In this document: piece by piece, positions 4,562 to 22,107 of the stretch
Layout of the letters: every line of letters starts with the position of its first letter
Position numbering within the stretch: the first letter of the stretch is position 1
Origin: Streptomyces akebiae
GTDB taxonomy: Bacteria > Actinomycetota > Actinomycetes > Streptomycetales > Streptomycetaceae
Length of the DNA stretch: 64,000 bases
Direction of reading: 5' to 3'
Assembly: GCF_019599145.1 (NCBI RefSeq)
Contig: NZ_CP080647.1
Span: 6,510,001 to 6,574,000, forward strand
Notes under the pieces: model-generated
What the model was told of the DNA's origin: nothing
Seen by the model: the letters and a program-made list of their open reading frames with translations, nothing else
Databases searched by the model: none
Made by a program: the position numbers and the translations under genes

Positions 4562-4580
4562 GCCGGGTGCGGGGGCGGCT

Positions 4581-4640
4581 CACAGCCCCTGAGCGGGTGG
4601 CTCAGCCTCTGAGCGGGTGGCTCGGTCCCTGAGTGGGCGG
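4581..4640. repeat. 20-bp tandem repeat, three copies
   Basis: Three consecutive 20-bp units with core CCCTGAGCGGGTGGCTCAG occupy 4581-4600, 4601-4620 and 4621-4640. A partial fourth runs into the last codons of the minus-strand DUF4180 gene. The TGAGC/GCTCA words allow alternative small hairpins, so the array may double as a terminator between the two convergent genes. Confidence 0.75.
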
Positions 4641-4642
4641 GC

Positions 4643-5008
4643 TCAGCCCCTGAGCCGCTCCCGCAGTTCCTCGACATCGGCCAGGAACCACGTCTGACGG
4701 TTGCGGTTGCACTCCCGGACGAAGTCGCGCAGGGCCGAACTGTCGGCCGTGTACGGGGAGATGTCACCGACGACGGCGAGACCGACGCGGTACTGCACGA
4801 ACTTCTGGATGATGTCGCCCGCGACGCGGGTGCTCAGCCGGAAGAACCGCTCGTCGAACCGCTCGACGGGAACGGCGACCCACGCGGCGCCCTGGTACCC
4901 GGCATCCCCGATGAGGTCCAGGGCGTCGCTCTCACCCCCGATCACCCCGCCCTCGGCGGCACACATCAGCACGGGCACGTCGTGGATCGTCTGCAGGGTG
5001 GCGGTCAT
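4643..5008 (-). CDS. DUF4180 domain protein
   Basis: A 121-aa cytoplasmic protein matching the DUF4180 family over its whole length: an MTATLQTIHDVPVLMCAAEG-type start, then GESDALDLIGDAGYQGAAWVAVP, the RFDERFFRLSTRVAGDIIQKF block, and a C-terminal RDFVRECNRNRQTWF segment. The family is widespread in bacteria; its biochemical function is not known to me. It lies 28 bp downstream of the 123-aa gene at 5037-5408 on the same strand, probably in one transcription unit. No transmembrane segment or metal-binding motif is visible. Confidence 0.85.
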   Translation of the reverse strand: MTATLQTIHDVPVLMCAAEGGVIGGESDALDLIGDAGYQGAAWVAVPVERFDERFFRLSTRVAGDIIQKFVQYRVGLAVVGDISPYTADSSALRDFVRECNRNRQTWFLADVEELRERLRG

Positions 5009-5036
5009 GAGGGGAGGCTACTGCCTCGCCCGCCGG

Positions 5037-5408
5037 TCACTTCATCAATGCGTCGTGCGCGACGGCGTACTTGCCGAACTGGCTGTGGAAGCCCGACGCG
5101 AAATCGCCTTGCGCCTTCGTGTCCAGGTAGTCGGGGAACCTGCCGCTGGGCGGGACGAAGTCCGCGATCGCGCGGAACATCTCGCTGGCGGCCTGCCAGT
5201 GCCTGGGGCCCCGGGTGCGCGCGGCGAGCAACTGCTCGCCCGCCTTCTTGAGCTGCTCACGCAACTGCGGGCCCGGATGCCGCTTGGCCCGGCTCAGGGA
5301 GCTGTCGTTCCCCAGCCGCCGGTCGCGTTTGCCGATGGCCTGGAGCGCGTGCAGCGTCGCGTAGAGCTGACCGCACAGATACGCGGGGGAGGGCTGTGTG
5401 TCAGCCAA
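5037..5408 (-). CDS. Small protein resembling the C-terminal part of Cas8c/Csd1
   Basis: A 123-aa protein. Residues 9-23 (AYLCGQLYATLHALQ) resemble the A-Y-x-C-G-x-L-x-A-x-L-x-x-x-Q block near the C-terminus of type I-C Cascade large subunits (Cas8c/Csd1). Residues 96-110 (DTKAQGDFASGFHSQ) resemble the following LxxQGxFALGYYHQ block. Only about 120 residues are present instead of roughly 600, and no cas gene or CRISPR array occurs in the window. It precedes the DUF4180 gene in an apparent two-gene operon. It may be a stand-alone relative of that helical domain, or the resemblance may be superficial; I rate the homology as moderate and the function as unknown. Confidence 0.5.
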   Translation of the reverse strand: MADTQPSPAYLCGQLYATLHALQAIGKRDRRLGNDSSLSRAKRHPGPQLREQLKKAGEQLLAARTRGPRHWQAASEMFRAIADFVPPSGRFPDYLDTKAQGDFASGFHSQFGKYAVAHDALMK

Positions 5409-7786: not shown

Positions 7787-8803
7787 TCAACTCTGCCTCT
7801 CGCAGCCGCAGTCGGCCGCCGCCACGTCCTCCAGCAAGCCGCTCTTGGCCGTGAGGTAGGCGAGCTGGGCACGGCTGTTGCTGCCGAGCAGGTCGCCCAC
7901 CTTCTTGAGGTGGCTGGCGACGGTACGGGGGCTGATGCCCAGCCGGCTGGCGATGGCGGCGTCCGTGTAGCCGTCGACCATGAGGCGCAGCACATGCAGC
8001 CGCGTCTCGTCGGTCAGGAGAGCGGGGCGTTGCTGGTCGTGCTCGTAGACGACCGGCCGCGCCCGCTCCCAGGCGTACTCGAAGGCGGAGACCAGGAAGT
8101 GCACGACGCCCGGGTCGGTGACCTTGAGGGCGTGGGTGCCGTGGTCCTTGCCCATGTCGGGGATGAACGCGACGGACCGGTCGCAGATGATCATCCGGTC
8201 GAACACCTCGTCCACCGTGCGTACTTCGACGCCCAGGTCGGTGACCTGCTTGATGTAGTCGAGGGTCGGGCCGTGCGCGCGGACGGTGTGCTGGTAGAGC
8301 GTGCGCTGCTTGACGCCCTTGCGGTGCGCCTCCAGCGTCCGCGGCAGGGCCTTGACCAGGACCTCCTCGGGACGCCTGCCGCCCGGGTGCGCGGTCAGCA
8401 GTTCGATCCTCGTGCCGCGGATCGCCTCGTCCAGCGCGGCGGTGATCGCCGGCGCGGGCGTGAGCCGCTGGGACGACTCGCTCTCCTGGCGGCGGGCGGT
8501 GCGGTAGACGCTCTCCGCCTGCGACATCGACGCCCGTACGGCGGCCAGGGCCTGCTGCTGTTCCAGGATCAGCCGCTCCATCGGGTGCGCCAGCGCCGCC
8601 GTCGCCACCGAGGGCGGAATCGGCACCATCGCCTCCGGGTCGTCCACCGCCGGGGCCACGAGCCCGAACGCGCTCACACAGCCCGGCGCGTCCGCGCGCG
8701 GGGCCCTTCCCGCCAGCAGCGCGGTGCGATAGAACTCGATGCCCACCCCACATACCTCCGCAGAGGAGTCGTCGCCCCCGGGTATGTCCGACTCACCGCA
8801 CAT
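7787..8803 (-). CDS. LuxR-type regulator with N-terminal TrmB/PLD-like sensor region
   Basis: A 338-aa regulator. The C-terminus (about 265-325) is a GerE/LuxR helix-turn-helix: RLMVDGYTDAAIASRLGISP then RTVASHLKKVGDLLGSNSRA. The middle (about 115-240) carries IRGTRIELLTAHPGGRRPEE, TLYQHTVRAHGPTLDYIKQV and VDEVFDRMIICDRSVAFIP, the pattern of orphan Streptomyces LuxR proteins with a TrmB- or phospholipase D-like sensor domain. No receiver or ATPase domain is present, so it is not a classical response regulator or LAL. The ATG at 8803 is chosen because GGGGGATGGC precedes it; the frame stays open upstream. It is divergent from a 48-aa secreted peptide gene and adjacent to the AmCP operon, which suggests peptide-linked or pathway-specific control. 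Confidence 0.85.
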   Translation of the reverse strand: MCGESDIPGGDDSSAEVCGVGIEFYRTALLAGRAPRADAPGCVSAFGLVAPAVDDPEAMVPIPPSVATAALAHPMERLILEQQQALAAVRASMSQAESVYRTARRQESESSQRLTPAPAITAALDEAIRGTRIELLTAHPGGRRPEEVLVKALPRTLEAHRKGVKQRTLYQHTVRAHGPTLDYIKQVTDLGVEVRTVDEVFDRMIICDRSVAFIPDMGKDHGTHALKVTDPGVVHFLVSAFEYAWERARPVVYEHDQQRPALLTDETRLHVLRLMVDGYTDAAIASRLGISPRTVASHLKKVGDLLGSNSRAQLAYLTAKSGLLEDVAAADCGCERQS

Positions 8804-8943
8804 GCCATCCCCCTTCAGAATCCTGCAGTGCACGATCATGACCCCTTCAATCGCTTCCGGCAACCGGCCGCCCAGGGCATGCTCTTCGTGTGGACACCGG
8901 CGAAGAGCCGCGAGTCCGATAATTCTTCTGGGGGGTACTGGAA
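8804..8943. promoter_or_regulatory. Divergent promoter region of LuxR gene and peptide gene
   Basis: This 140-bp interval lies between the start codons of the divergent LuxR and peptide genes and must contain both promoters. It includes an AT-rich stretch (GATAATTCTTCTGG, near 8918-8931) before the GGGGGG ribosome site of the peptide gene. I cannot assign -35/-10 boxes with confidence. Confidence 0.5.
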
Positions 8944-9090
8944 ATGAAGTACATGCGCAGAACGGCCGGGGCGCTCGCGTTTGTCGCCGCCGCGGTGCTG
9001 ACCCTTTCCGTCACCGTCGAGACGGCCGAACGCACCACGGTCGCAAGCGCCCAGGCGTCCAACGCGCCGGCCGACCCCGGCTGGCCCTGA
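8944..9090 (+). CDS. 48-residue secreted peptide ending in DPGWP
   Basis: A 48-aa open frame, ATG at 8944, with a strong GGGGGG ribosome site 8-13 nt upstream. It reads as a signal peptide (MKYMRRTAGA, then LAFVAAAVLTLSV) followed by a short hydrophilic part. A signal-peptidase-like VASA-Q site at 36/37 would release a 12-residue peptide, QASNAPADPGWP. No Cys/Ser/Thr-rich core or maturation enzyme for a lanthipeptide or lasso peptide is nearby. Divergent pairing with a LuxR-type regulator suggests an extracellular signal or a partner of that regulator; this is inference. Codon usage is as GC-rich at third positions as the neighbours, supporting that it is translated. Confidence 0.7.
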   Translation: MKYMRRTAGALAFVAAAVLTLSVTVETAERTTVASAQASNAPADPGWP

Positions 9091-9416: not shown

Positions 9417-9608
9417 ATGACCACCGCCATTGCCGCACCGAAGTGCTTGGTGTGCGACACCGAATTCGAGGTCCAGGAGGACTGGGAAAAGGGGGAGATC
9501 ACCGAGTGCACGGCCTGCGGCCAGGAGCACGAGGTGGTCGAGAAGTCCGCCGCCGCCGGCGTACGGCTCGACCTCGCCCCCGAGGTGGAAGAGGACTGGG
9601 GCGAGTGA
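9417..9608 (+). CDS. lysW: LysW-family amino-group carrier protein (AmCP)
   Basis: A 63-aa acidic carrier protein. Two zinc knuckles, C10-x2-C13 and C31-x2-C34, and the C-terminal EVEEDWGE are the family hallmarks. In characterised LysW proteins the gamma-carboxyl of the last Glu forms an isopeptide bond with the alpha-amino group of the substrate, which protects it and gives electrostatic docking for the next enzymes. The ATG at 9417 follows AAGGAA, and the product has normal family length. Its stop overlaps the GTG of lysX (GTGA), so the two are translationally coupled. In the context of transketolase and DegT genes it is likely to carry intermediates of a specialised amino acid, not lysine or arginine. 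Confidence 0.95.
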   Translation: MTTAIAAPKCLVCDTEFEVQEDWEKGEITECTACGQEHEVVEKSAAAGVRLDLAPEVEEDWGE

Positions 9609-10492
9609 CGACCGCCGATCAGGTCCTGCTCTCGGTGACGATGCTGCGGCCCGAGGAGAAGCTGCTCCTCGGGGCGCTGCGGGCCGAGGGGCTGACGGCT
9701 CGGCCGTTGCTGATGGAGGATCTGGCGGAGGTCGTGGCGGGCCGCACCGGCGGTGGCCCGCCCGCTCTCGCCGTGATCCGCAACCTGTCCCACCGGGACG
9801 CGATCAGTGTCTCCCGGCGGCTGGAGTACGCCGGGGTGACCACCCTCAACCGGTCCTCCGTCATCGAGGCCTGCAACGACAAGGGGCTGCAGTCGCTGCT
9901 GTTCGCCCGCCACGGCATTCCGCACCCGGTCACCCGGCACGCCTTCAGCTACGACCAAGTGCGTTCCGCCGTGGACGAGTTGGGGATGCCGGCCGTCGTC
10001 AAACCGGTGAGCGGCTCGTGGGGGCGGGGCGTCACCAAAATGGCCAACGCCGAGTGTGTCGAGGCGTGGGCCGGAGGACGGGAGTCCGCGGACGCGGGCG
10101 GGAAGCTGTTCCCCGTGGTCGTCCAGGAGTACGTCGACAAGCCCGGGCACGATCTGCGGGTCGTGGTGGTGGGGCGGACGCCCGTGGTGGCGATCCAGCG
10201 GGTGTCGGAGGACTGGCGGACCAACACGCATCTGGGGGCGCGGGTTCAGCGGGTCGAGGTGACCGCCGAGATCGACAAGCTGTGTCAGCAGGTGGTCGAT
10301 GTGCTGGGGCCCGGGTTCTACGGGGTGGACCTGGTGGAGGACCGGGTGGCCGGGGAGCTGCTCGTGCTCGAGGTCAACGCCAATCCGGAGTTCGCCAAGT
10401 CGTCGGCGGAGCACGGGGTGGATGTGGCGGGGTTGTACGCGGCGTATGTGGCCGAGCAGGTGGCGTCGCCGGCGGCCGTCGCCGCCGTCTAG
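9605..10492 (+). CDS. lysX: LysX/ArgX-type ATP-grasp ligase charging the AmCP
   Basis: A 295-aa RimK-like ATP-grasp enzyme. It aligns by eye with Thermus LysX: IRNLSHRDAISVSRRLEYAG, NRSSVIEACNDK, the ATP-binding KPVSGSWGRGV, GHDLRVVVVG, the TNTHLGARV motif and the metal-binding GVDLVEDRVAGELLVLEVNA. LysX forms the isopeptide bond between the C-terminal Glu of LysW and the amino group of alpha-aminoadipate; ArgX does so with glutamate. Which substrate is used here cannot be read from sequence, although transketolase-containing AmCP pathways begin from glutamate. The GTG start overlaps the lysW stop. A 333-bp gap containing a large repeat hairpin separates it from the next gene. Confidence 0.93.
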   Translation: MTTADQVLLSVTMLRPEEKLLLGALRAEGLTARPLLMEDLAEVVAGRTGGGPPALAVIRNLSHRDAISVSRRLEYAGVTTLNRSSVIEACNDKGLQSLLFARHGIPHPVTRHAFSYDQVRSAVDELGMPAVVKPVSGSWGRGVTKMANAECVEAWAGGRESADAGGKLFPVVVQEYVDKPGHDLRVVVVGRTPVVAIQRVSEDWRTNTHLGARVQRVEVTAEIDKLCQQVVDVLGPGFYGVDLVEDRVAGELLVLEVNANPEFAKSSAEHGVDVAGLYAAYVAEQVASPAAVAAV

Positions 10493-10542
10493 GGCACCGG
10501 TCCGTTTCCCGCCCCCGCGGTCGGTGGTCGGCCGCGGGTGCG

Positions 10543-10751
10543 TGGGGGCTGGTCGCGCAAGTCCTCGCGCCCTGAAAGCCCAGGCCCCGCGGGCCTGAAA
10601 GGCGACGGCCACGCGGGCCTGAAGGCGACGGCCACGCGGGCCTGAAAAGCACGGGGCGCAGCCCCTGCTTTTCAGGGGCGCGGGGAACTGCGCGAGAAGC
10701 CCCACGGACCCGCACCCGCCGACGACCCGCACCCACCGAGCTCCCAGGCGC
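10543..10751. repeat. Streptomyces-type intergenic hairpin repeat, copy 1
   Basis: An imperfect palindromic element. The left end (GGGGGCTGGTCGCGCAAGTC) mirrors the right end at 10670-10703 (TTTCAGGGGCGCGGGGAACT then GCGCGAGAAGCCCC). Inside are an AAAAGCACGGGG/CCCCTGCTTTT hairpin and two copies of CCTGAAAGGCGACGGCCACG. A close relative is at 31148-31340, and both continue into the same GAGCTCCCAGGCGCCCCCAC flank. It lies between lysX and the degT-like gene, so it may attenuate transcription inside the operon or mark a promoter boundary. Confidence 0.85.
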
Positions 10752-10825
10752 CCCCACACCCCACCCCCTCACCCCTCACTCCCACCCCCACTTCACGCAA
10801 GCGGATCAGAGAGGCCCAACACCTT

Positions 10826-11497
10826 ATGGAACTGTTCGACACCGCCACCGTGCTCACCCGGGTTCTGACCTCGGGCGTGGTGATGAGTATCGAGAAGAGC
10901 GACCGGGAGTTGCCCGGTCTGGAACGGCTGTTGACGAAGAAGACGCGGCGGAGCAAAGCCGTGCTGCTCAACAGCCGGACGGGGGCGATCCACGCCGCGT
11001 TGGCCGGTCAGGGGATCGGCCACGGGGACAGCGTCGCCCTGGCGGAGCCGGACGCGGAGACCGCCGCGTTCCTGGCCTGGCTGGGCGTGCGCGTGACGTC
11101 GTACGACGAGCCCGCCGCGTACGACTACCTGGCGCTGGACCCGGCCAACGCCGACCGGCTCGGCGAGCTGGCCGCGGGGGCCACCGCGCCGGCGCTGGTC
11201 GTCGACCTGACCGGTCTCGGCTTCGGTCCGGCCGCCGCCGTGCTCACCGACGACCCGAAGCTCTGGGCCCGCGCCGAGCGGCTGAAGATCTTCGGCGCCT
11301 ACGACCTGCGCACGATGTGGACGCAGGAGGAGGCGGACGCCGACCTCGTCCCCGGCGTGCAGTTCAACTACCGGCTCAGTCCGCTGGTCGCCGCCTGTGT
11401 GCGGATGGCCCTGACCCAGGCGGCACAACCCCAGACGGCACAGCCCCAGACGGCACAGCCCCGCCTCGCCGCGACTTCCGGAGCGAACCAGTCATGA
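10826..11497 (+). CDS. Shrunken DegT-like protein lacking the PLP lysine
   Basis: A 223-aa protein that resembles pieces of DegT/DnrJ/EryC1 aminotransferases. NSRTGAIHAALAGQGIGHGD (about 49-68) corresponds to the cofactor-binding GTSSLHMALVGAGVRPGD of the downstream enzyme, VLTDDPKLWARAERLKIFG to the strand after the active site, and FNYRLSPLVAACVRMAL (about 183-199) to the dimer-interface segment. The section with the aspartate and the PLP lysine is missing, as is the small C-terminal domain, so it should be catalytically dead. Its stop overlaps the ATG of the full aminotransferase (ATGA), suggesting a 1:1 partner. The tail contains a repeated AQPQTAQPQTAQP linker. The function is inferred from similarity and context only. 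Confidence 0.65.
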   Translation: MELFDTATVLTRVLTSGVVMSIEKSDRELPGLERLLTKKTRRSKAVLLNSRTGAIHAALAGQGIGHGDSVALAEPDAETAAFLAWLGVRVTSYDEPAAYDYLALDPANADRLGELAAGATAPALVVDLTGLGFGPAAAVLTDDPKLWARAERLKIFGAYDLRTMWTQEEADADLVPGVQFNYRLSPLVAACVRMALTQAAQPQTAQPQTAQPRLAATSGANQS

Positions 11498-12813
11498 TCA
11501 CCGACTTCCCCAACTCGCCGCTGCCGCTGCCGAATCCGGCGGACCTCGACGACGAACTCGCCGCCCTGGGCGGCGCCGAGATCATCCCCAAGGCGCTCCG
11601 CCGCACGCTCTTCCCCGTCATCACCAAGGAAGACGTGTTCAACCTGATGCTCGCCCAGCGGCAGGCGCCCGAGAAGGTCGTCGCCGACTTCGCCGAGGCC
11701 TACCGGGCCTATGTGGGCGCCGGGTTCGCGCTGCCCACGGCCAGTGGTACCTCCAGCCTGCACATGGCGCTCGTCGGCGCCGGGGTGCGGCCCGGCGACG
11801 AGGTCATCGTGCCGGCGTTCACCTTCATCGCCACCGCGCAGGCCGTCGTCGCGGCCCACGCCGTGCCCGTGTTCGTCGACATCGACCCGGTCACCTACTG
11901 CATGGACCCGGCCGCCGCGGCCGCCGCGATCACCGAGCGGACCCGGGCGCTCATGCCCGTACACGTCCACGGGCTGCCCGCCGACGTCCCCGCGCTGCGC
12001 GCGCTCGCCGACCGGCACGGCATCGCCCTCGTCGAGGACGCCTCCCACGCCCACTCCGCGAAGATCGGCGACCGGGTCGCCGGCTCCCTCGGGGACGCGG
12101 CCGGGCAGAGCCTGATGGCCGACAAGAACTTCCCGTTGGGCGGGGAGGGGGGTATCGCCTTCTTCGCCGAGGAGGAGTCGTACCGGCGGGCCGTCTCCTA
12201 TCTCGCCCGCCACGGCATCGACTACGGGATGTCCTGGGTCGCCGCCGCCTTCGGCAGCAGCCAGCTCAAGCGGCTGCCGTACTACGACGAGATCCGCGCC
12301 CGCAACGCGGCGCTGCTCGGGGACGCCCTGCGCGAGACGGGACTGTTCACGCCGCCGCACGTGCCGGACGGGCACGTCCACGCCTACAACATGTACCGGC
12401 TCACCCTGCACCCCGGGGCCGTCGGCCTCGACGACCTGCCGGTGCACGCCGTCAAGGAGGCCGTCCACGAGCTGCTGGTCGCGGAGGGCGTGCCGGCGCG
12501 CGAGTGGCAGAACACGCCGATCCCCTGCCACCTGCCCTTCCGGCACCGGGACGGGTTCGGGAACGGCTACCCCTTCAGCCTCAACCCCGGCGCCGTGCGC
12601 GACCACCGGCCGGAGGACTTCCCCGTCACCCTCGGCATGCTCGACTCGACCCTCGTCCTCTGCCGCGAGCTGCGCTCCCCGGTCGAGTACGAGCGGATCC
12701 TGCGCTACGCCGACGCCTTCCGCAAGGTCGCCCGCCGCCCCGACGCCATCCGCAAGCTGGTCCAGGAGCGCGACTACGTGCGGCCGTACGAGAAGGCGGC
12801 CCGCCTTGGCTGA
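11494..12813 (+). CDS. DegT/DnrJ/EryC1 PLP-dependent aminotransferase
   Basis: A 439-aa sugar-aminotransferase-type enzyme. Visible hallmarks are GTSSLHMAL (85-93, phosphate binding), VPAFTFIATAQAV, VEDASHAHSA (Asp182 to the pyridine nitrogen, His185) and DKNFPLGGEGG with the Schiff-base Lys211. The family transfers an amino group, usually from glutamate, to a keto group. In vazabitide-type AmCP pathways an aminotransferase aminates the ketol made by transketolase on the carrier protein, and that is the expected job here. The ATG at 11494 overlaps the preceding stop; its 3' end overlaps the next gene by 8 nt. It could pair with the inactive paralogue encoded just upstream. Confidence 0.9.
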   Translation: MITDFPNSPLPLPNPADLDDELAALGGAEIIPKALRRTLFPVITKEDVFNLMLAQRQAPEKVVADFAEAYRAYVGAGFALPTASGTSSLHMALVGAGVRPGDEVIVPAFTFIATAQAVVAAHAVPVFVDIDPVTYCMDPAAAAAAITERTRALMPVHVHGLPADVPALRALADRHGIALVEDASHAHSAKIGDRVAGSLGDAAGQSLMADKNFPLGGEGGIAFFAEEESYRRAVSYLARHGIDYGMSWVAAAFGSSQLKRLPYYDEIRARNAALLGDALRETGLFTPPHVPDGHVHAYNMYRLTLHPGAVGLDDLPVHAVKEAVHELLVAEGVPAREWQNTPIPCHLPFRHRDGFGNGYPFSLNPGAVRDHRPEDFPVTLGMLDSTLVLCRELRSPVEYERILRYADAFRKVARRPDAIRKLVQERDYVRPYEKAARLG

Positions 12814-13894
12814 CATCGGGAACACCGACCACGGGAACACGAACCAGAAGATCCGCGTCGCCGTCGTCGGCGCCAGCGGATACACCGGGGGCGAGGTCAT
12901 CCGGCTGCTCCTCGAACACCCCCACGTCGAACTCGCCTTCCTGTCCGCCGAGCGGGCCGCCGGTGCCGTCATCGGCAGCGTGCACCCCTGGCTGCGCAAC
13001 CATCCCAAGGCGGGCGCGCTGAGGTTCCGGCCGCTGGCCGAGCTGGCGCGGACCGACCCCGTCGACGTGGCCTTCTGCTGCCTGCCCACCGGAGCGCTGC
13101 CCGAGCGGCTGCCGCTGATCGCGGCGCACGCCAAGCGGGTGCTGAACCTGGGCGGCGACTTCCGACTGCGGGCCGAGGACGAGGTGCGGGCGCACTACCC
13201 GAAGACAGCCGAGCACCCGCCGCTGGAGGACTTCGCCTACTACGTACCGGAGTTGAGCGGCGACGTGCCGGAGGGGCGGTTCGTGAACCTGCCCGGCTGC
13301 ATGGCCGTCACCACGATCTACGCCCTGTACCCGCTCTTCGCCGGCGCCGAGCCGCTGGCCACCGACCGGGTCGTCGTCGACGCGAAGACCGGCTCGACCG
13401 GCGGCGGCCGGGGCAGTAACGAGCCGCCCGCCGAGCGCAGCGGGAACTTCCGGGTGCACAAGCTGTACGGGCACCGGCACGCGCCCGAGGTCCGGCAGGC
13501 CATCGCCGACTTCACCGGTGCGGCCGTGGACCTCCGTTTCTCCACGCACAGCCTGGACGTGGCCCGGGGCATCCTCGTCACCGCCTACGCCGAACTCCGG
13601 GACGGCGTCACCTCGTTGGACGTCAAGCGGGCCTACGCCAAGGCGTACGTCGGCAAGCCGTTCGTCCGGGTCCGCCCGGCGCCGAAGGCCCCGCAGGACT
13701 TCCCGATGCTGAAGGCGGTCGTCGGCTCGAACGTCGCCGAGGTCGCCATCGCCGTCCAGGGCGGGCAAGTCGTCGCCGTCGCCGCCCTGGACAACCTGAT
13801 CAAGGGCGCGGCGGGCCAGGCCGTCCAGGCGATGAACCTGATGCACGGCTTCGACGAGACCTCCGGCCTGCCGACCACGGCGGTGTCCCCATGA
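12806..13894 (+). CDS. ArgC/LysY-type N-acyl-phosphate semialdehyde dehydrogenase
   Basis: A 362-aa NADPH-dependent reductase of the ArgC family. The Rossmann motif [20 protein letters not shown] is near residue 18, the nucleophilic cysteine is Cys165 in NLPGCMAVT, and [16 protein letters not shown] supplies the catalytic His. LysY enzymes reduce the carrier-bound acyl phosphate to the semialdehyde. The start is a TTG at 12806 behind GAGAAGG and inside the last codons of the aminotransferase gene; no ATG or GTG lies in a better place. The Met after the Cys (GCMAVT instead of GCYPT) is unusual for primary arginine ArgC and fits a specialised AmCP pathway. Its stop overlaps the next ATG. Confidence 0.9.
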
Positions 13895-15906
13895 CGACCC
13901 AGCTGGAACGACCGGTGACGACAACAGGAACCACTCCGGCCCCGGCCGCCGCCCCCGACACGCGGTCCGCGACCTTCTCCGTCCCCGCCCGCCCCGTCCT
14001 CCGGCCCACCGGGCCCCTCTACGTCGTCAAGGCAGGCAGCGCCACTCTCGATCGCGGCACCATCCACAAGGAGCTCGCCGATCTGGTGGCCCGGGGTGCC
14101 CGGGTGCTGCTCGTGGCCGGTGGGGCCACCGGGATCGAACGGCACTACGCGGCGATCGACCGGCCGATGCCGCACCTGCGGCTGGCCAACGGGGACGTGG
14201 TGCGGTACTGCCCGCCGGAGGAGATGACGCACCTCGTCGACGCCTACGAGCGGGTGACGCTGCCGGCCGTGGAGCGGGAGCTGCGCGCGCTCGGGCTCAG
14301 CGTGTTCACCTCCGTCGCCGCGCGCGGCGGGCTCGTGAGCGGCAGGGCCAACCGGCCGCTCAAGGCGGTGTCCGGCGCGGGCCGGACCCTGGTCGTGCGC
14401 GACCACCGGGCCGGTGTGCCGACGGCCGTCGACGTCGACGGCCTGACCGCGCTGCTGGAGGCGTACGACGTCGTCTGTCTGTCGCCGCCGGTCGCCGACC
14501 CGGCGGGCGGCGCCCCGCTGAACGTGGACGCCGACGTGCTCGCCGCCGTCCTGACCGGCGCGCTCGGCGCGGACCACCTGCGGCTGGTCACCGGCACCGC
14601 CGGACTGCTGACCGACCCTGCCGTCCCCGACTCCACGCTCTACGACGCCTATCCGGGCGAGGGCGCGAAGTACGCGGGCGGCAGGATGCGGCAGAAGGTG
14701 CGGGCCGCCGAGATCGCCATGACGGACAGCGGCGCCGACGTCGCCATCACCGGTCCGCACACGATGGGCGTACCGTCCGGCTGGACCCGGTTCTGGCGTA
14801 CGAAGGAACCGGCGGCCGACCTCGGGCTGCTCACCCGCGTCGCCTGTGTGCCGTCGGTGTCGCGGGACGAGGCCGAACTCTCCGCCTACCTGGCCGAGTG
14901 GTGCCGGGAGCGCGGCATCGACGCCCGGGTCGACGAGGTCGGCAACCTCGTCGCCACCCGGGGCGACGGCCCCCGGCGGCTGCTGCTCCTCGGCCACCTC
15001 GACACGGTCCCCCACCACTGGCCGGCCGAGTGGCGCGACGGCGAACTGTGGGCGCGGGGCAGTGTCGACGCCAAGGGCAGCCTGGCGAACTTCCTGGAGG
15101 TGCTCGCCCACGCGGACATCCCCGAGGACGCCCAGCTGCGCGTGGTCGGCGCGGTGGAGGAGGAGATCTCCTCCTCCAAGGGCGCCTTCCACGTCCGCGA
15201 CCGGTACCCGGCCGACGCCGTCGTCATCGGCGAGCCCAGCGGCTCGGGGACCCTGACCCTCGGCTACTTCGGGCTGTTCAAGCTCCGGATCACGGCATCC
15301 GTGGCCAGCGGCCACTCCGCCGGGATGGACGCCGTGTCCGCGCCGGACCACCTGATCGACGTCCTCGCCCGGATCCGGGCGTCGGTGCTCGCCGAGGCGC
15401 CGGACGCGCTCAGCGCGGTCATCGACGTCCGCGTGGAGAGCGGGCGCGAGCGCTCCACCGCCATCGGGATCCTCAACTTCCGGGTGCCGCCCAAGGCCGA
15501 TGTGCAGGCGCTCACGGCCGCCGCGCTGAGGCATGCCGCCGACGACGTCCGCGTCGAGGTGCTGCGGGCCACCCCCGGGCACGCCGGAGGCCGCTCCAGC
15601 GCGCTGGTGAAGGTCTTCACCCGGGCCTTCGCACAGGCCGGGATCAGGCCCCGCTTCGTGGTGAAGAAGGGCACGTCCGACATGAACACGCTGGCCACCA
15701 CCTGGCACGACGTCCCGATGGTGGCGTACGGCCCCGGGGACTCCTCCCTGGACCACACCGACGAGGAACGCATCGACCCCATGGAGTACCGCACCGCCCG
15801 CACCCTGCTCGCCGACGCGGTCCACCGGTGGTTCGCCCTGTCCGACGTGCCCGCCCCGCCTGCCCTGCCCGATCTGCCCGACCTGCGCGAGGGGAGCCGG
15901 CGATGA
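13891..15906 (+). CDS. Fusion of LysZ-type carrier-acyl kinase and LysK-type M20 deacylase
   Basis: A 671-aa protein with two complete enzyme halves. Residues about 42-300 are an amino acid kinase of the acetylglutamate-kinase/LysZ type ([26 protein letters not shown], the [10 protein letters not shown] strand, [14 protein letters not shown]). Residues about 310-655 are an M20 metallopeptidase like LysK/ArgE: GHLDTVP (His369, Asp371), GSVDAKGS (Asp393), VEEEIS (Glu423-425), IGEPSG and a final DSSLDH. In known AmCP pathways kinase and deacylase are separate proteins that activate the side-chain carboxylate and, last, cut the product from LysW. A disordered Thr/Pro/Ala leader of 40 residues precedes the kinase. 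The joined frame is continuous, with no stop between halves. ATGA overlaps join it to both neighbours. Confidence 0.9.
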
Positions 15907-17168
15907 GCACGGCGGTACTCGACGGACTCCGGGCCGGGGACGGCGACCCGGCCGATCCGGTGACCCAGGCCGAGCCGGGCGCCGAAGTGGGCCCTGCCGC
16001 GCCGGTCGCCCCGGCGGCCCCTGCCGCCCCGGCGGTCCCTCCCGCCCCGGCGGTCCCGGCGGTCTCTGCCGCCCCGGTGGACGCGGTGGTTTCTGCCGCG
16101 CCGGCGGTCCCGACGGTCCCGGCGGACCTGGCGGTCCCGGCGGACCTGACGGTCCCGACGGTCCCGGCGGCCCTGGCGGTCCCTGCCGCCCCGGCGGACG
16201 CGGTGGTTTCTGCCGCGCCGACGGTCCCGACGGTCCCGACGGTCCCGACGGTCCCGACGGTCCCGACGGTCCCGACGGTCCCGACGGTCCCGACGGTCCC
16301 GACGGTCCCGACGGTCCCGACGGTCCCGGCGGCTCCGGCGGCCCCGGCCGGCCCGGTGGCTCCGGCCGGCCTGGTGGCCCCGGCCGACCTGGTGGCCATC
16401 CTCGCCGAACGAGCCGTCCTGGCCCGCCGGTTGGTGGTCGACATGGCGGCGAGCCCGCGCGGCTGCCACCTCGGCGGCAGCCTCTCCGTCCTCGACATCC
16501 TGATCGCCGCCCTGCACCGGGCCTCCGCCGGCGACGGCACCGAGGTCGTCCTCAGCAAGGGCCACGCGGCCGCCGGGCTCTACGCGGCCCTGCACGTCAG
16601 CGGGGCCCTGCCCGAGAACCCCGCCCCGCTGTACGGCCTCGCCGGCCACCCCTACACCGGCCACCCCGGCCCCAAGGTGCCCGGCGTCCGCTTCCCCACC
16701 GGAAGCCTCGGCCACGGCGTCCCGTACGCCGCCGGCTGGGCGCTCTCGCAGCGGCTGCGGGGGCTCCACGGGCTCGGCATCGCGGTCGCCGGGGACGGCG
16801 AGCTGCAGGAGGGCCTGGTCTGGGAGACCTGCCAGGTCGCCGCCGCACAGGAGCTCGGCAACTTCGTCCTCGTCGTCGACCGCAACGGCGGCCAGAACGA
16901 CGGCATGGTCGCCGACATCTCCCCGCTGCCCCGGCTCGCCGAGCGTTTCGCCGCGTTCGGGTTCGACGTCACCGAGGTGGACGGCCACGACCTGGGCGTC
17001 CTCACCGCCCTGCTGGCCGAGGACCGCACGACCGCCCGGCGCCCCCTCGCCGTCGTCGCCGACACCGTCAAGGGCAAGGGCGTGCGAGCCGTCGAGGGCA
17101 AGGCCGCCTGCCACTACGTGACCATCGACCAGGCGCGCGCCGCCAAGTGGAAGCGAGCGATCCGATGA
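15903..17168 (+). CDS. Transketolase, N-terminal subunit, with long low-complexity leader
   Basis: A 421-aa thiamine-diphosphate enzyme subunit. The transketolase domain starts near residue 163: [41 protein letters not shown] (267-273) and the cofactor-binding GDGELQEG (298-305) followed by RNGGQND. Free-standing N-terminal subunits are usually about 270-300 aa; here some 160 extra residues of Ala, Val and Pro precede the domain, with 12 perfect TVP units at 107-142. The subunit binds the diphosphate of ThDP and works with the C-terminal subunit encoded next (ATGA overlap). In AmCP pathways of the vazabitide type such a pair transfers a two-carbon ketol to the carrier-bound semialdehyde; that role is inferred from context. 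Confidence 0.9.
16221..16328. repeat. 9-bp minisatellite, 12 perfect copies, inside a coding region
   Basis: Twelve head-to-tail copies of ACGGTCCCG run from 16221 to 16328 and encode Thr-Val-Pro repeats. About 200 bp of degenerate relatives (GCGGTCCCG, GCGGACCTG and similar) precede it. As the unit is three codons long, copy-number change keeps the frame and alters only the linker length. Confidence 0.95.
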
Positions 17169-18139
17169 GCCCGACGGCAACCACCGCGCCCGAGCGGCCG
17201 ATGCCCGACACCGACGAGCGGCCGGTGACCCTCTCCGGCCGCGACGCCTACCGGGACGAGCTGACCCGGCTCGCCGCCTTCGACGACACGATCGTCTGCC
17301 TGGAGGCGGATCTGGGCGGCAAGGGACACCCCTTCCAGGCCGCCCACCCGGAGCGTTTCTTCAACCTCGGGATCGCCGAGGGCGCGATGGTCGACATGGC
17401 GGCGGGGCTCGCGGCCGGCGGCCACAAGCCGTTCGTCAGCACCTTCGCCCCGTTCGCCGCCCTGCGCGCCGCCGAGAGCCTGAAGCTGACGCTCGGCTAT
17501 CTGGCCGCCGGTGTCACGGTCGTCGCGCCCTACGCCGGCGTCTCCGGCGCCTGGTTCGGGACCACCCACCACTGCCTGGAGGACCTGGCGATCCTGCGCA
17601 GCGTGCCGGGCGTGACCATCGCGGCGCCCTACGGCGACGCCGAGATGCGCGCGGTGGTCCGGGAGGCGGTCCGCTCCGGACGCCCGCACTACATCCGCAC
17701 GGGACGCAACGCGACGTACGAGTCCCTGCCGATGCACGGTGCCGAACTCCCGCTCGTGAACTGGGAGTTCAGCGCCGCCGACCCCGGCGCCGTCTGCCTC
17801 GTCTCCGTCGGCGAGGAGGGCACCCGCCTCGCCCTCGCCGCCCGGCGGACCGTGCCCGGCACCTCCCACGCGCACCTCGTCTACCTGGACCACGAGAACC
17901 TGACGCCCGCCGCCGCCGAACTCGCCCGCCACCACTCCCGGTTCGTGGTCGTCGAGGAGCACCGGGGCCAGGGCGGCATCGCGGAGGCACTCGCGCTGCT
18001 GCTCCCGGAGTGCCTGGTCACCTCCGTGAGCGCCGGCCGCGGCTGGCCCTCCCAGGGCGGCGACCACGAGGAGGTCATGGCCGCGCTGGGCCTGGACCTG
18101 CCCGCCGTCCTGGACGCGCTGGACCGCGCCGCCGACTGA
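17165..18139 (+). CDS. Transketolase, C-terminal subunit
   Basis: A 324-aa subunit carrying the pyrimidine-binding and C-terminal domains. [20 protein letters not shown] contains the conserved catalytic Glu72 that activates thiamine. [37 protein letters not shown] and [13 protein letters not shown] follow in the family order, and the end ([18 protein letters not shown]) belongs to the C-terminal domain. It starts with ATG at 17165 inside the stop of the N-subunit gene, implying coupled, equimolar synthesis. Together the two should form the ketol-transferring enzyme of the AmCP pathway. A tandem-repeat spacer follows before the ATP-grasp gene. Confidence 0.92.
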
Positions 18140-18155
18140 CCACGCCGAGCCGAAG

Positions 18156-18240
18156 CGATCGCCCCCACGGACCGATCGCTCCCACGGACCGGTCGCCCCC
18201 ACGGACCGGTCGCCCCCACGGACCGATCGCCCCACGGCAG
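18156..18240. repeat. 17-bp tandem repeat, five copies
   Basis: Five consecutive 17-bp units based on CGATCGCCCCCACGGAC start at 18156, 18173, 18190, 18207 and 18224; the last is degenerate. They fill most of the 151-bp gap between the transketolase C-subunit and the ATP-grasp gene, where the stop/start overlaps are interrupted. The array could be neutral expansion or a binding or attenuation site. Confidence 0.85.
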
Positions 18241-18290
18241 CCGTCGCCCCCGAACTGATCACCCCACAAGCCTCTTCAAGGAGTCCTGAC

Positions 18291-19544
18291 ATGCACATCC
18301 TCATGATCGAGTGCAACCCGAACGGCATGGCCGGTATCGCCAACGCCCTGGACCTCGGCCACGACGTCACCCTCGTCTCGGTCGACCCCGACTTCTACCT
18401 CGCCGTCTCGCCGCTCACCGAGGCCGCCTACGCGCACCCCAACTGCCAGGTCATCAAGAGCGAGAAGGCGTTCTCCATCGAGGAGCTGACGGCCCTGGCC
18501 CGCGAGGTCCACGCCGAGCGCCCGGTGCACGGCGTGACCACGTACAGCGAGTACCACACCGTCCACACCGCCGCCGTCGCCGAGGCGCTGGGCCTGCCCG
18601 GGATGAGCGTCGACGGCGCCCGCAACGCCCGCCACAAGCACCTCACCCGCCTCACCCTCGACGGCACGGGCATCCGGCAGCCGCGCTTCGCGCACGTCTC
18701 GGACATGACCAAGGTCGAGGCGGCCGTCCGCGAGGTCGGCTTCCCCTGCGTGGTGAAGCCGTCCGACGGCACCGCCAGCCTGCACGTCCTGCACCTGAAG
18801 GACGAGGACGACCTGACCGCGTACCTCGCCGAGCTGGCGGAGGTCGTCGACTACGGGCGCGGCGTCGTCCGTATCCCGGACATCCTGATCGAGGAGTTCG
18901 TCCCCGGCGAGCTGATCTCGGTCGAGTCGTGCGTGCTCGGCAAGGGCGAGGTCGTCAACCTCGGTCTGACCGACCGCCCGCTGAGCGGCTTCCCGCACTT
19001 CATCGAGATGGGCGCCACCTACTTCACCGGACACCCGCTCCAGGACGAGCTGTTCGAGATGACCACCAAGGTCCTGAACGAACTGGGCGTCGACTTCGGC
19101 TTCATCCACACCGAGTTCCTGCTCGGCCCCGACGGCCCGGTGCTGTGCGAGGTCAACGGCCGGCTCATCGGCGGCATCGTGCCGAGCCTGATGCAGATCA
19201 GCTCCGGCGTCGACGCCTACCTGGAGGTCATCCGCCAGGCCCTCGGCGAGCGCCCCGAACTGCCCTTCCCCGGCGAGACCATCGCGGGCGGCCACTGGTT
19301 CGGCTCCCCGGTCGCCGGCACGGTCGAGTCCATCGGCTTCGACGGCCTGAAGGACCTGCCCGGCTTCCACAGCGCCCTCGCCTACAAGAAGCCCGGCGTC
19401 GAGGTCAGCCGTCTCTCCAAGAGCAACTTCGACTGGATCGGCCACATCATCTTCACCGGCGCCGACCGCGACGAGGTCAACAAGCGCAACGAGGAGGCCC
19501 TGGACGCCATCGACCTGCGCCTGAAGGTCGAGGTGGCCCGATGA
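18291..19544 (+). CDS. ATP-grasp amino-acid ligase
   Basis: A 417-aa ATP-grasp enzyme of the carboxylate-amine ligase type (BacD and carnosine-synthase-like group). Visible elements are the N-terminal ILMIECNPNGMAGIANALDL, the GVTTYSEYHTVHTAAVAEAL region, PCVVKPSDGTASLHVLHL (ATP-binding lysine), ILIEEFVPGELISVESCV and the metal-binding FIHTEFLLG and LCEVNGRLIGG. Such enzymes form an amide bond between two amino acids through an acyl phosphate. In this operon it would join the AmCP-derived amino acid to a second amino acid; the partner is unknown. An AAGGAG ribosome site precedes the ATG, and the stop overlaps the amidohydrolase ATG. Confidence 0.88.
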   Translation: MHILMIECNPNGMAGIANALDLGHDVTLVSVDPDFYLAVSPLTEAAYAHPNCQVIKSEKAFSIEELTALAREVHAERPVHGVTTYSEYHTVHTAAVAEALGLPGMSVDGARNARHKHLTRLTLDGTGIRQPRFAHVSDMTKVEAAVREVGFPCVVKPSDGTASLHVLHLKDEDDLTAYLAELAEVVDYGRGVVRIPDILIEEFVPGELISVESCVLGKGEVVNLGLTDRPLSGFPHFIEMGATYFTGHPLQDELFEMTTKVLNELGVDFGFIHTEFLLGPDGPVLCEVNGRLIGGIVPSLMQISSGVDAYLEVIRQALGERPELPFPGETIAGGHWFGSPVAGTVESIGFDGLKDLPGFHSALAYKKPGVEVSRLSKSNFDWIGHIIFTGADRDEVNKRNEEALDAIDLRLKVEVAR

Positions 19545-20884
19545 GCGAGGCCGCATCCGGCCGCACGGGGACGGTCACCCTGCACGGGGTGGCCGTCCCG
19601 GCCCTCGACCCCGGGGCGCTGTACGACGTCACCACGGAGAACGGCGTCTTCACGGCCTTCACGCCGACCGGCCCCCGGCAGGGCGGCGAGCACGAGCTCT
19701 GGCCCGGCTACACCGAGACCCACGCCCATGTCTCGCTCCCCGCGAACTGGGACGACACGGTCGAGGACCCCCGGATCGTGGCCCTCCAGTACCTGTACCA
19801 CGGTGTCACCCACGTCGTGGACATGTTCGGTTTCCCGCTGGTCGCCGACGCCTGGGCGGCCGGCCGCGAGGCCTCCCCGTGGCCGTACCCGGAGATCGCG
19901 CACTGCGGCTACGCGGTGACGGCCACGACCGACGCGGCGGGCCGCACCGGCCACGGCGTCGAGTTCCCGGCCCCGGTGCACATGCTGGCCGTCGAGTCCG
20001 ACCTCGACCACGCCCTGCGCGCCAACGCCGAACGCGGCGGCACCTTCCTGAAGGTGATGTTCACCGACGGCACCGAACAGCCCGGCAGCCCGGTCCGCTT
20101 CTCCCGCCTGTCCGAGAAGGTCCTGCGCTTCACCGCCCGCATGGCGCGGGAACGCGGTGTCACCGCGGTCATCGACTGCAACACCCTCCAGGAGACCCGC
20201 TGGGCGTACGAGTGCGGCTTCCGCCTCTTCGCCCACACCGTGCGCGACCGCACCCTCGACGACATCGACTGGAAGGAGTTCGAGGGGGCGCGCTTCGTGT
20301 CCACCCTGGCCGGCCTCCGCCCGATGATCATGACGGGCGAGGAGTTCCTGACCGAATACTCCCGCGAGGGCTTCGCCGAGACCCAGGACGTCCGCAACCT
20401 CGACTTCGTCAAGGGCATCGAGAAGCCGTACGGCATCGAGTACGGCGTCCAGGAGACCCGCACCGCCGCCCTCGCCGACATGCGCCGCAACGCCCTCGCG
20501 GCCCTGGGCCGGGGCGACCTGCTGGTCGGCACCGACTCCGGCAACACCGGCGCGTACCACGGCTACTCCCTGCTCAGCGAGCTGGACCTGCTGCGCGGCG
20601 ACGACACCGCACTGGACGGGATGCTGCGCCACCAGGCCACGGTCGGCGGCCGCCGTTACTTCGAGGAACTCAGCGGCGACACCACGGGCGCGCACCCCCT
20701 GCGGGCCGGCGCCCCCGCCACGTACAACCTCCTCCACCCCTGCGCCCCCGACCGCCCGCTGTCGGCCCTGCCCGTCCGCACGGTCGTCCGGGGCACGGAG
20801 ATCGACCGCCCGGCGCTGGCCCGCGAGATAGCGGATCTCCGCGCGCGCATCGCCACCACCGACCTGAAGGGAACGGCCGCGTGA
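19541..20884 (+). CDS. Amidohydrolase-superfamily metalloenzyme
   Basis: A 447-aa TIM-barrel amidohydrolase. The N-terminal beta-sandwich is followed by WPGYTETHAHVS with the metal pair His61/His63. GGTFLKVMFTD carries Lys171, a good candidate for the carboxylated lysine, and VGTDSGNTGAYHGYS gives the terminal metal-binding Asp. Related enzymes hydrolyse imidazolone, dipeptides or cyclic amides. It is coupled on both sides (ATGA with the ligase, GTGA with the MFS gene), so it probably trims or unmasks the ligase product, or protects the producer. The substrate cannot be predicted from sequence. There is no signal peptide, so it is cytoplasmic. Confidence 0.85.
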   Translation: MSEAASGRTGTVTLHGVAVPALDPGALYDVTTENGVFTAFTPTGPRQGGEHELWPGYTETHAHVSLPANWDDTVEDPRIVALQYLYHGVTHVVDMFGFPLVADAWAAGREASPWPYPEIAHCGYAVTATTDAAGRTGHGVEFPAPVHMLAVESDLDHALRANAERGGTFLKVMFTDGTEQPGSPVRFSRLSEKVLRFTARMARERGVTAVIDCNTLQETRWAYECGFRLFAHTVRDRTLDDIDWKEFEGARFVSTLAGLRPMIMTGEEFLTEYSREGFAETQDVRNLDFVKGIEKPYGIEYGVQETRTAALADMRRNALAALGRGDLLVGTDSGNTGAYHGYSLLSELDLLRGDDTALDGMLRHQATVGGRRYFEELSGDTTGAHPLRAGAPATYNLLHPCAPDRPLSALPVRTVVRGTEIDRPALAREIADLRARIATTDLKGTAA

Positions 20885-22107
20885 CCATCGAACGCAGGCG
20901 GGCACTGATCGGCGTGAACGCCGGCATCTTCCTCGCCCACATCGGGAACTTCATCTGGTTCCCCGTACTCGTCGCCTCCCTCGGCGGCACCGACAGCGGC
21001 TTCTGGGCCGGGGTCGTGATGTGCATGACCTACGTGGGCCGCCTCGCCGCGACCTTCTTCTACGAGGGGGTCGCGGCCCGGATCGGCATCCGGGGCGCGG
21101 TGTTCGCGGGCACCGCGACGGAGGCGGTGGCGCTGGGCCTGATGGGCTTCGGCAGCGGTGTCGTCGTGTACAGCGTGCTGGCCCTCTTCATCGGCCTCGG
21201 CTCGGGCACGGCCTTCCCCGGGCTGAAGAACATCCTCGTCTCGTACCCCGACGACGAGCGCCCGAAGGCCTTCTCGACCTTCCAGATGTCGGCGCAGGTG
21301 GGTCTCTTCGGCGGTGCGCTGGCCGGCGGCCTCCTCGCGGACGTGGACCTCCGTACTCTCTTCTCCGTCGTCTTCGCGATCTTCATCGGCTTCTGCCTGG
21401 CCGCGTCGGCGTTCATCCCGAGGGACGGCTTCGGGAGCGTGGACAAGCCGGTGGACCGGGTCCCCCTGCTGAGCACGGCGGTCTTCAAGGGCATCGAGGT
21501 CCGCGGCGCCACCCGCTACTTCCTGCTCTCCGCCGTCTTCTGGTTCCTCTCCATCGGCTTCATGGTCGGCATCCCGCTGCACATGGAGGAGTACGCGTCC
21601 GGATGGGCCCCCTCGGCACCCTTCTGGATCACCGGCCTGACGGTGCTGGTGCTGCAGTACCCCCTGTTCAAGTTCCTGATCAAGCACCTGCGCCCGGGGG
21701 CCGTGATGGCGCTGGGTCTGGCGGGCATGGTCGTGGCGTTCACGGCGTTCGGCGCGGGCCGCACCGCTCCCTGGGTGGTCGTGGGCTGCCTCACCGTGGT
21801 GCTGGGCGAGATCCTCTTCGTCCCCTCCTTCGACATCTGGATCGCCCGCAAGGTCCCGGCGGACCGCCTCGCCAAGGCCATGGGCGCGATGCACTTCTTC
21901 CGCAGCGCCGGCAACATGATCGGCTCCCTGCTGGCCGGCCTCCTCTTCGACCTGGCCCTGTCCTGGGACGTCCCCGGCGCGAACTGGTACATCGCCGCGC
22001 TGATCGCCGCCGGGTGCGCCGCGATCTGCCTGTTCAGCGGGGACGAGGAGACGGCGGAGGAGGCCGTCGAGACGGCCGAGGAGGAGCGGGCGGAGGCGTC
22101 GGCTTAG
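20881..22107 (+). CDS. Major facilitator superfamily transporter, last gene of the AmCP operon
   Basis: A 408-aa MFS protein with about 12 hydrophobic segments, for example INAGIFLAHIGNFIWFP-like helix 1, GFWAGVVMCMTYVGRLAATF and VVVGCLTVVLGEILFVP. The loop after helix 2 (FYEGVAARIGIRGAV) resembles the MFS motif-A position. The C-terminal tail is very acidic (EETAEEAVETAEEERAEA). The GTG start at 20881 overlaps the amidohydrolase stop, so it belongs to the operon and most likely exports the final product. A hairpin directly behind the stop marks the operon end. Confidence 0.88.
   Translation: MTIERRRALIGVNAGIFLAHIGNFIWFPVLVASLGGTDSGFWAGVVMCMTYVGRLAATFFYEGVAARIGIRGAVFAGTATEAVALGLMGFGSGVVVYSVLALFIGLGSGTAFPGLKNILVSYPDDERPKAFSTFQMSAQVGLFGGALAGGLLADVDLRTLFSVVFAIFIGFCLAASAFIPRDGFGSVDKPVDRVPLLSTAVFKGIEVRGATRYFLLSAVFWFLSIGFMVGIPLHMEEYASGWAPSAPFWITGLTVLVLQYPLFKFLIKHLRPGAVMALGLAGMVVAFTAFGAGRTAPWVVVGCLTVVLGEILFVPSFDIWIARKVPADRLAKAMGAMHFFRSAGNMIGSLLAGLLFDLALSWDVPGANWYIAALIAAGCAAICLFSGDEETAEEAVETAEEERAEASA

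Follow-up and report, generated by a model that had tools for sequence, protein, structure and literature searches.

A conserved carrier-protein gene cluster of Streptomyces akebiae with a stand-alone ligase, a candidate pathway to small peptides of a carrier-built amino acid

In azinomycin biosynthesis, as outlined in the parts of PMC9570651 available to us, N-acetylglutamate is phosphorylated and reduced to the semialdehyde, to which a transketolase adds two carbons before amination gives 2,6-diamino-5,7-dihydroxyheptanoate (DADH), and a carrier version of this route is known from vazabitide A. According to the consulted portion of PMC9303977, DADH is made on an amino-group carrier protein (AmCP) and is then built into nonribosomal peptide (NRP) products, among them vazabitide A and s56-p1. 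The window analyzed here, a stretch of 64 kb of the 10.5 Mb genome of Streptomyces akebiae (NZ_CP080647.1, hereafter C1, positions 6510001-6574000), contains at 9417-22107 eleven genes, all on the + strand, whose products cover each step of the published DADH route at the family level. They form a conserved carrier-protein secondary-metabolite cluster, and we consider it probable that this cluster encodes a self-contained pathway, free of NRP synthetases (NRPS), to a small peptide containing an amino acid built on the carrier, with all of its reactions and the product itself being predicted. Compared by description only, the cluster has in common with the AmCP DADH pathway of vazabitide A and s56-p1 a LysW with an acidic tail, LysX, a kinase, ArgC, an M20 hydrolase, a transketolase and DegT (PMC9303977 and PMC9570651, in the parts available). 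Whereas vazabitide A and s56-p1 are NRP products (PMC9303977, same portion), the S. akebiae cluster shows instead a stand-alone ligase, an amidohydrolase and a major facilitator superfamily (MFS) protein, with no condensation domain nearby. The eleven genes are arranged in the following order, in window coordinates.

9417..9608, + strand: LysW-like amino-group carrier protein, 63 amino acid residues, C-terminal EDWGE (PF21344, 40.9 bits, cut-off 27)
9605..10492, + strand: LysX-like ATP-grasp ligase (PF08443 and PF22626 over cut-off; TIGR00768, 207.6 bits, cut-off 143.4)
10826..11497, + strand: short DegT-like partner chain, without the pyridoxal phosphate (PLP) lysine, FNYR motif kept
11494..12813, + strand: DegT aminotransferase catalytic chain, PLP lysine kept, Asn of the NYR motif lost (PF01041, 221.8 bits)
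12806..13894, + strand: ArgC-like acyl-phosphate reductase (TIGR01850, 289.8 bits, cut-off 233.6)
13891..15906, + strand: fused amino-acid kinase (N-terminal) and M20 LysK-like hydrolase (C-terminal) (PF00696 and PF01546 over cut-off; TIGR01902, 286.7 bits, cut-off 163.1)
15903..17168, + strand: transketolase N-terminal subunit (PF00456, 77.4 bits, residues 175-417)
17165..18139, + strand: transketolase pyrimidine-binding subunit (PF02779, 94.4 bits)
18291..19544, + strand: L-amino-acid-ligase-type ATP-grasp enzyme, proposed peptide-bond former (PF13535, PF18130 and PF18603, LAL_C2, over cut-off)
19541..20884, + strand: divergent amidohydrolase-fold protein, prolidase/carboxypeptidase-like (predicted fold)
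20881..22107, + strand: MFS transporter, proposed exporter (PF07690, 98.6 bits)

Ten of the eleven proteins were assigned to families with Pfam and NCBIfam, the amidohydrolase being the exception. Open reading frame calls and family searches agreed with the gene set, coordinates and direction of the original prediction, which had been made from the DNA sequence, and the carrier-protein route that it proposed was supported by a full enzyme set. Its single DegT aminotransferase is present, although as two DegT-family genes (10826-11497 and 11494-12813); likewise, its kinase and deacylase are both represented by family, but in one fused gene (13891-15906). It also described nearly all junctions as stop/start overlaps: with the starts chosen in this analysis, overlaps of 4-8 bases occur at eight of the ten junctions, while gaps of 333 bases (LysX to short DegT) and 151 bases (transketolase pyrimidine subunit to ligase) separate the genes at the other two.

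Relatives of the cluster were located by scanning genome contigs with the ligase alone, which gave 25 loci. The order and strand of the eleven genes are identical in 23 of them, and in the remaining two (L006 and L009) the contig begins within the cluster; this recurrence excludes a chance association of the eleven genes. The 25 loci come from two phyla and include members of Streptomyces, Kitasatospora, Glycomyces, Microtetraspora, Sphaerimonospora and Actinorhabdospora, as well as the betaproteobacteria Chitinimonas prasina and Chromobacterium subtsugae, and S. lydicus is among the carriers (L019). Ligase matches in named Streptomyces are 96-98% identical. The gap between LysX and the short DegT gene could be measured in 23 loci: it does not exceed 41 bases in 16 of them, spans 92-109 bases in three and reaches 178-365 bases in four; gene ends in the relatives were called by script and some of the starts behind these lengths are rough. 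Since most loci show the short form, the long gap of the window (10493-10825) has the appearance of a local insertion. Within it lies a 21-base repeat with 177 copies in the genome (89 forward and 88 reverse; reversed control 0), together with a 23-base tandem repeat.

The core enzymes show conserved motifs across the relatives. LysW ends in EDWGE in all 24 aligned copies, window included, and the nearest solved chains of LysX are 3vpd and 1uc8. LysX, the kinase, the ArgC-like reductase and the LysK-like hydrolase all stand together in the cluster according to Pfam and NCBIfam, next to both a transketolase and a DegT aminotransferase, the latter two-chain. Transketolase motifs GDGELQEG (N subunit) and GIAE (pyrimidine subunit), HRHxPE of ArgC, and GH[LI]DTVP and AVEEE of the hydrolase were each found in 26 of 26 copies; we take them to be catalytic motifs, those of the transketolase including the thiamine diphosphate motif. 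The transketolase N subunit starts with about 150 low-complexity residues of Ala/Pro/Val/Thr repeats (window 15903-16400), encoded by a tandem array in which a 9-base unit occurs 38.6 times (16010-16356). This start is not conserved, as all 25 relatives match only 58-63% of the window protein.

The aminotransferase is, by sequence and motif comparison, of the split, two-chain type found in Serratia and not of the single-chain Fic25 type. Both chains have homologues in the heterooligomeric aminotransferase of Serratia sp. ATCC 39006 (PDB: 8y96, 8y97 and 8y98): the catalytic chain matches chain A of 8y96 (E 4.5e-161) and the short chain matches chain C (E 2e-48), and for both chains this heterooligomer is a better match than single-chain Fic25. 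The catalytic chain carries the PLP lysine and has lost the Asn of the NYR motif, whereas the short chain lacks the lysine and keeps FNYR. The motif of the short chain is invariant in 26 of 26 copies, which, together with the match to a solved partner chain, led us to reject a broken pseudogene; the DegT motif MADKNFP is present in 25 of 26 copies, with L015 as the exception. Two-chain aminotransferases form a discrete group, with at least 81% identity for the matches in 16 genomes and 36-46% for all other matches. Fic25 of S. ficellus (PDB: 8gyh-8gyj), the best single-chain PDB match, is a DegT homologue of the catalytic chain over residues 21-422 (E 1.1e-72), and one of its entries is titled as a PLP-(5S,6S)-N2-acetyl-DADH adduct; it is a single chain with GWNHK, at a place where the catalytic chain of the window lacks six residues as well as the Asn. 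In the openly licensed literature no paper on structure 8y96 was found (a subscription paper may exist), and a search for Fic25/Vzb9 and two-chain DegT enzymes gave nothing useful.

The ATP-grasp ligase of the original prediction is present and, by Pfam, of the L-amino-acid-ligase kind, with LAL_C2 (PF18603) at 39.2 bits over a cut-off of 29.4. Its CEVNGR sequence, which we take to be the E-x-N-x-R motif of L-amino acid ligases, is conserved in 26 of 26 copies. The nearest solved structure is the L-amino acid ligase BL00235 (PDB: 3vot, E 1.1e-21), and the alanine-anticapsin ligase BacD is among the next, in a range where carbamoyl-phosphate synthase scores alike. Formation of dipeptides from free amino acids with ATP would be its predicted activity. 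The window ligase has in common with BL00235 and with BacD of bacilysin the ATP-grasp fold with LAL_C2, but it is distant from BacD (42.2 bits with the NCBIfam BacD model, cut-off 850), and the window differs from both systems in having an unusual amino acid that would be assembled on a carrier. In bacilysin the ligase also stands near an MFS exporter, as in the window; the exporter named in the original prediction belongs to the MFS family (PF07690), export itself being a proposal. Between the window and the two betaproteobacteria the ligase is 72-75% identical and the amidohydrolase and MFS proteins 51-56%, so that, of the three genes that follow the core, that of the ligase is the best conserved. 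The ligases of L019 (S. lydicus) and L051 group with those of L021, L023 and L055, in conflict with the core and amidohydrolase trees, and therefore the ligase gene has probably been exchanged between clusters. A plasmid-borne ligase was also considered and rejected, as a plasmid collection searched at E<=1e-40 gave only matches of 31.6-34.0% identity, in five records.

The amidohydrolase gave no Pfam match at E<=5 and no NCBIfam match at E<=1. Its predicted model has an amidohydrolase TIM-barrel fold with HxH and the strand-8 Asp, and structure comparison of the model gave prolidase, arginine carboxypeptidase and ochratoxin hydrolases as best folds. Identity to prolidase/carboxypeptidase-type amidohydrolases and to BotAH of bottromycin is 14-20% in the fits, and the window protein appears to differ from them in an Asp for the strand-5 His: D212, invariant in 36 sequences, aligns with the strand-5 metal His of prolidase in a weak profile alignment (E of 0.22 for the stretch). 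The family contains at least 75 proteins among the matches listed, at least 53% identical, none with a precomputed Pfam domain. In the genomes drawn across the phylum, only one of 396, the S. akebiae genome itself, has a match at E<=1e-10.

Clusters differ in the genes around a common core. The short DegT gene was found in 16 of 392 Streptomyces genomes drawn, a count that overlaps with the 25 loci (at least L046=L005, L053=L017 and L054=L014). Twelve of the 16, including S. akebiae, have all eleven genes, and in one (L056) the contig breaks off within the transketolase; the other three (L057-L059) show the core without ligase, amidohydrolase and MFS genes, L059 being also cut upstream before LysW/LysX. 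On the basis of these three clusters, the first eight genes are read as a module to which the last three were added. Longer forms also occur: among the 25 loci, ten have no extra genes in the available flank, as in the window, and L023 has a flank too short to judge; seven continue with an NAD-epimerase-family short-chain dehydrogenase/reductase (SDR, PF01370) and an ABM protein (PF03992); six additionally have a second ATP-grasp gene, LAL-like; and in L028 an SDR precedes the cluster and a second ATP-grasp gene of a different kind follows it. In a midpoint-rooted core tree the 11-gene forms are scattered among the longer ones, and L048, with extra genes, adjoins L047, which has none; the window is therefore likely a reduced form. 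The S. akebiae genome has no close SDR copy, its best matches being 29-38% identical. The product of the longer forms may be a tripeptide or an oxidised dipeptide. Some of the clusters carry other neighbours: an amino-acid permease gene follows the core in two of the three core-only clusters (L057:10674-11978 and L058:10595-12016), and a gene for a large BTAD-domain regulator also follows the core of L057, with a similar gene called in L058, which gives the impression that these clusters end with the free amino acid as product. Upstream of the contig-cut core of L056 stand two other genes, one for a different ATP-grasp protein and one FemAB/acetyltransferase-like (L056:105-2906).

In the pathway that we propose, LysX would charge LysW at its C-terminal glutamate with an acidic amino acid, for which glutamate is the likeliest candidate, and the kinase domain and ArgC would convert the side chain to the semialdehyde. 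The split transketolase would then extend it by a two-carbon ketol unit, the new ketone would be aminated by the two-chain DegT aminotransferase, and the M20 domain of the fusion would cut the DADH-type acid off the carrier. Finally, the L-amino-acid-ligase-type enzyme would couple the DADH-type acid to another amino acid through an amide bond and the peptide would be exported by the MFS protein, while the amidohydrolase-fold protein would be a dedicated hydrolase acting on the peptide or a precursor, in trimming or in producer protection. Support is stronger for the steps up to the free amino acid than for the peptide. DADH as the product, its conversion to an amide and the possibly new compound class of the original prediction are predictions. 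No reported product for the 11-gene set, including carrier-built peptides made by an L-amino acid ligase, was found in the openly licensed literature.

Several points weigh against this pathway. Its chemistry is predicted from the genes: the glutamate starter and the stereochemistry are deduced, sequence does not separate glutamate from aminoadipate loading, and it does not fix the partner amino acid of the ligase. LysW lies below the NCBIfam lysine-pathway equivalog cut-offs (57.9 of 75 and 33.4 of 53.2) and LysX below that of TIGR02144 (226.1 against 275.6). The usual strand-5 His appears to be missing from the amidohydrolase, which makes its catalytic competence uncertain. In addition, the DegT protein of L015 (S. 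roseolus, 4476-5282) lacks about 160 internal residues and matches only residues 1-141 and 304-439, by a broken gene or an assembly fault; this locus was retained in all counts.

The best surviving alternative, although an unlikely one, is that the core makes another carrier-bound amino acid, through an aminoadipate acceptor, another ketol donor or as a DADH stereoisomer. The two-chain aminotransferases, a discrete group separated by motif from Fic25-like enzymes, would fit a different stereochemistry, and the sub-threshold score of LysX with the lysine-specific model is in line with a different amino acid; however, the transketolase, ArgC and kinase/deacylase set is complete as described for DADH in the available parts of PMC9570651 and PMC9303977, and no homocitrate-type (aminoadipate-making) gene was found by Pfam among the eleven, unlike in a second carrier-protein locus of the same genome (L071, C1:4426001-4446000). 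L071 contains genes for HMGL-like (homocitrate-synthase-like), LysW-like, LysX, ArgC and kinase proteins, as well as a Glu/Leu dehydrogenase-like protein, an AMP-binding enzyme, a class I/II aminotransferase and an acyl-CoA dehydrogenase. Its LysW-like protein scores 24.6 bits with PF21344, just under the cut-off of 27, and its product is perhaps aminoadipate-based.

In a less probable reading, the ligase would form a lactam or couple a non-amino acid and the amidohydrolase would cyclise or hydrolyse that ring, with no linear dipeptide being formed. The best folds of the amidohydrolase are peptide- and amide-cleaving enzymes, and the best PDB matches of the ligase include BL00235 and BacD, both of which argue instead for the proposed peptide.

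An aziridine compound of the azinomycin, vazabitide or ficellomycin kind, with tailoring genes elsewhere, was rejected as very improbable. The carrier, transketolase and DegT logic is common to it; nevertheless, the unit is complete and compact in the relatives and no NRPS condensation domain was found within about 350 kb of the window. The nearest one, at C1:6932246, lies about 358 kb beyond, so that the absence of an NRPS from the window, as originally predicted, extends well past its limits. A sulphation step is described for azinomycin in the accessible part of PMC9570651, and such a step has no PF00685-family candidate here, since no PF00685 sulfotransferase was found in the genome (other sulfotransferase families were not searched). 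With this result and an aminotransferase that differs in type from Fic25, a close match to the ficellomycin-type enzymes of the route named in the original prediction was not supported. Finally, a role in lysine or arginine synthesis, suggested by the homology of LysW, LysX, ArgC, kinase and M20, was rejected as hardly credible, in agreement with the separate function originally predicted, because S. akebiae carries separate genes for these pathways (argC-argJ at 8.41 Mb, lysA at 3.33 Mb), the transketolase, ligase and exporter do not fit, and the short DegT gene was found in just 16 of the 392 Streptomyces genomes drawn.

Two further features lie upstream of the eleven genes.

7787..8863, - strand: LuxR-type regulator, divergent, a possible regulator that is not in all loci (PF00196, 37.7 bits)
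8944..9090, + strand: peptide of 48 amino acid residues with a hydrophobic N-terminal stretch, ending DPGWP, a possible signal-peptide partner of the regulator

Copies of the LuxR-type regulator with 57-96% identity occupy the same place in 12 of the 23 loci that are uncut upstream, and two more loci show matches of 27-30%. Peptides ending in D.GW plus one residue were found in the same place in six of the 15 other loci scanned (L005, L008, L010, L015, L026 and L027), and the window peptide was also matched by tblastn in L004 and L007. The regulator and the peptide are a possible peptide signal/regulator pair. Four relatives of the regulator (35-39%) stand side by side at C1:4.62 Mb. Defence genes were also considered and rejected, as none of the three proteins submitted to PADLOC was matched.

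More tentatively, the clusters of 11, 13 and 14 genes in Actinomycetota and Betaproteobacteria may form a family that makes carrier-built DADH peptides with one or two stand-alone ligases, the peptide being perhaps an antimetabolite disguised for uptake and the amidohydrolase-fold protein a new metallohydrolase dedicated to its unmasking or destruction within the producing cell. Carrier-route DADH products described so far are NRP products, as far as the consulted portion of PMC9303977 goes. If the proposed pathway is true, a widespread compact version with a soluble ligase would be a simple route to small DADH peptides with easily expressed enzymes. Furthermore, the split aminotransferase would place crystal structure 8y96 in a concrete pathway; the amidohydrolase-fold family would offer an uncharacterised enzyme with a testable substrate. 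As S. lydicus carries the cluster, the product can be sought at once.

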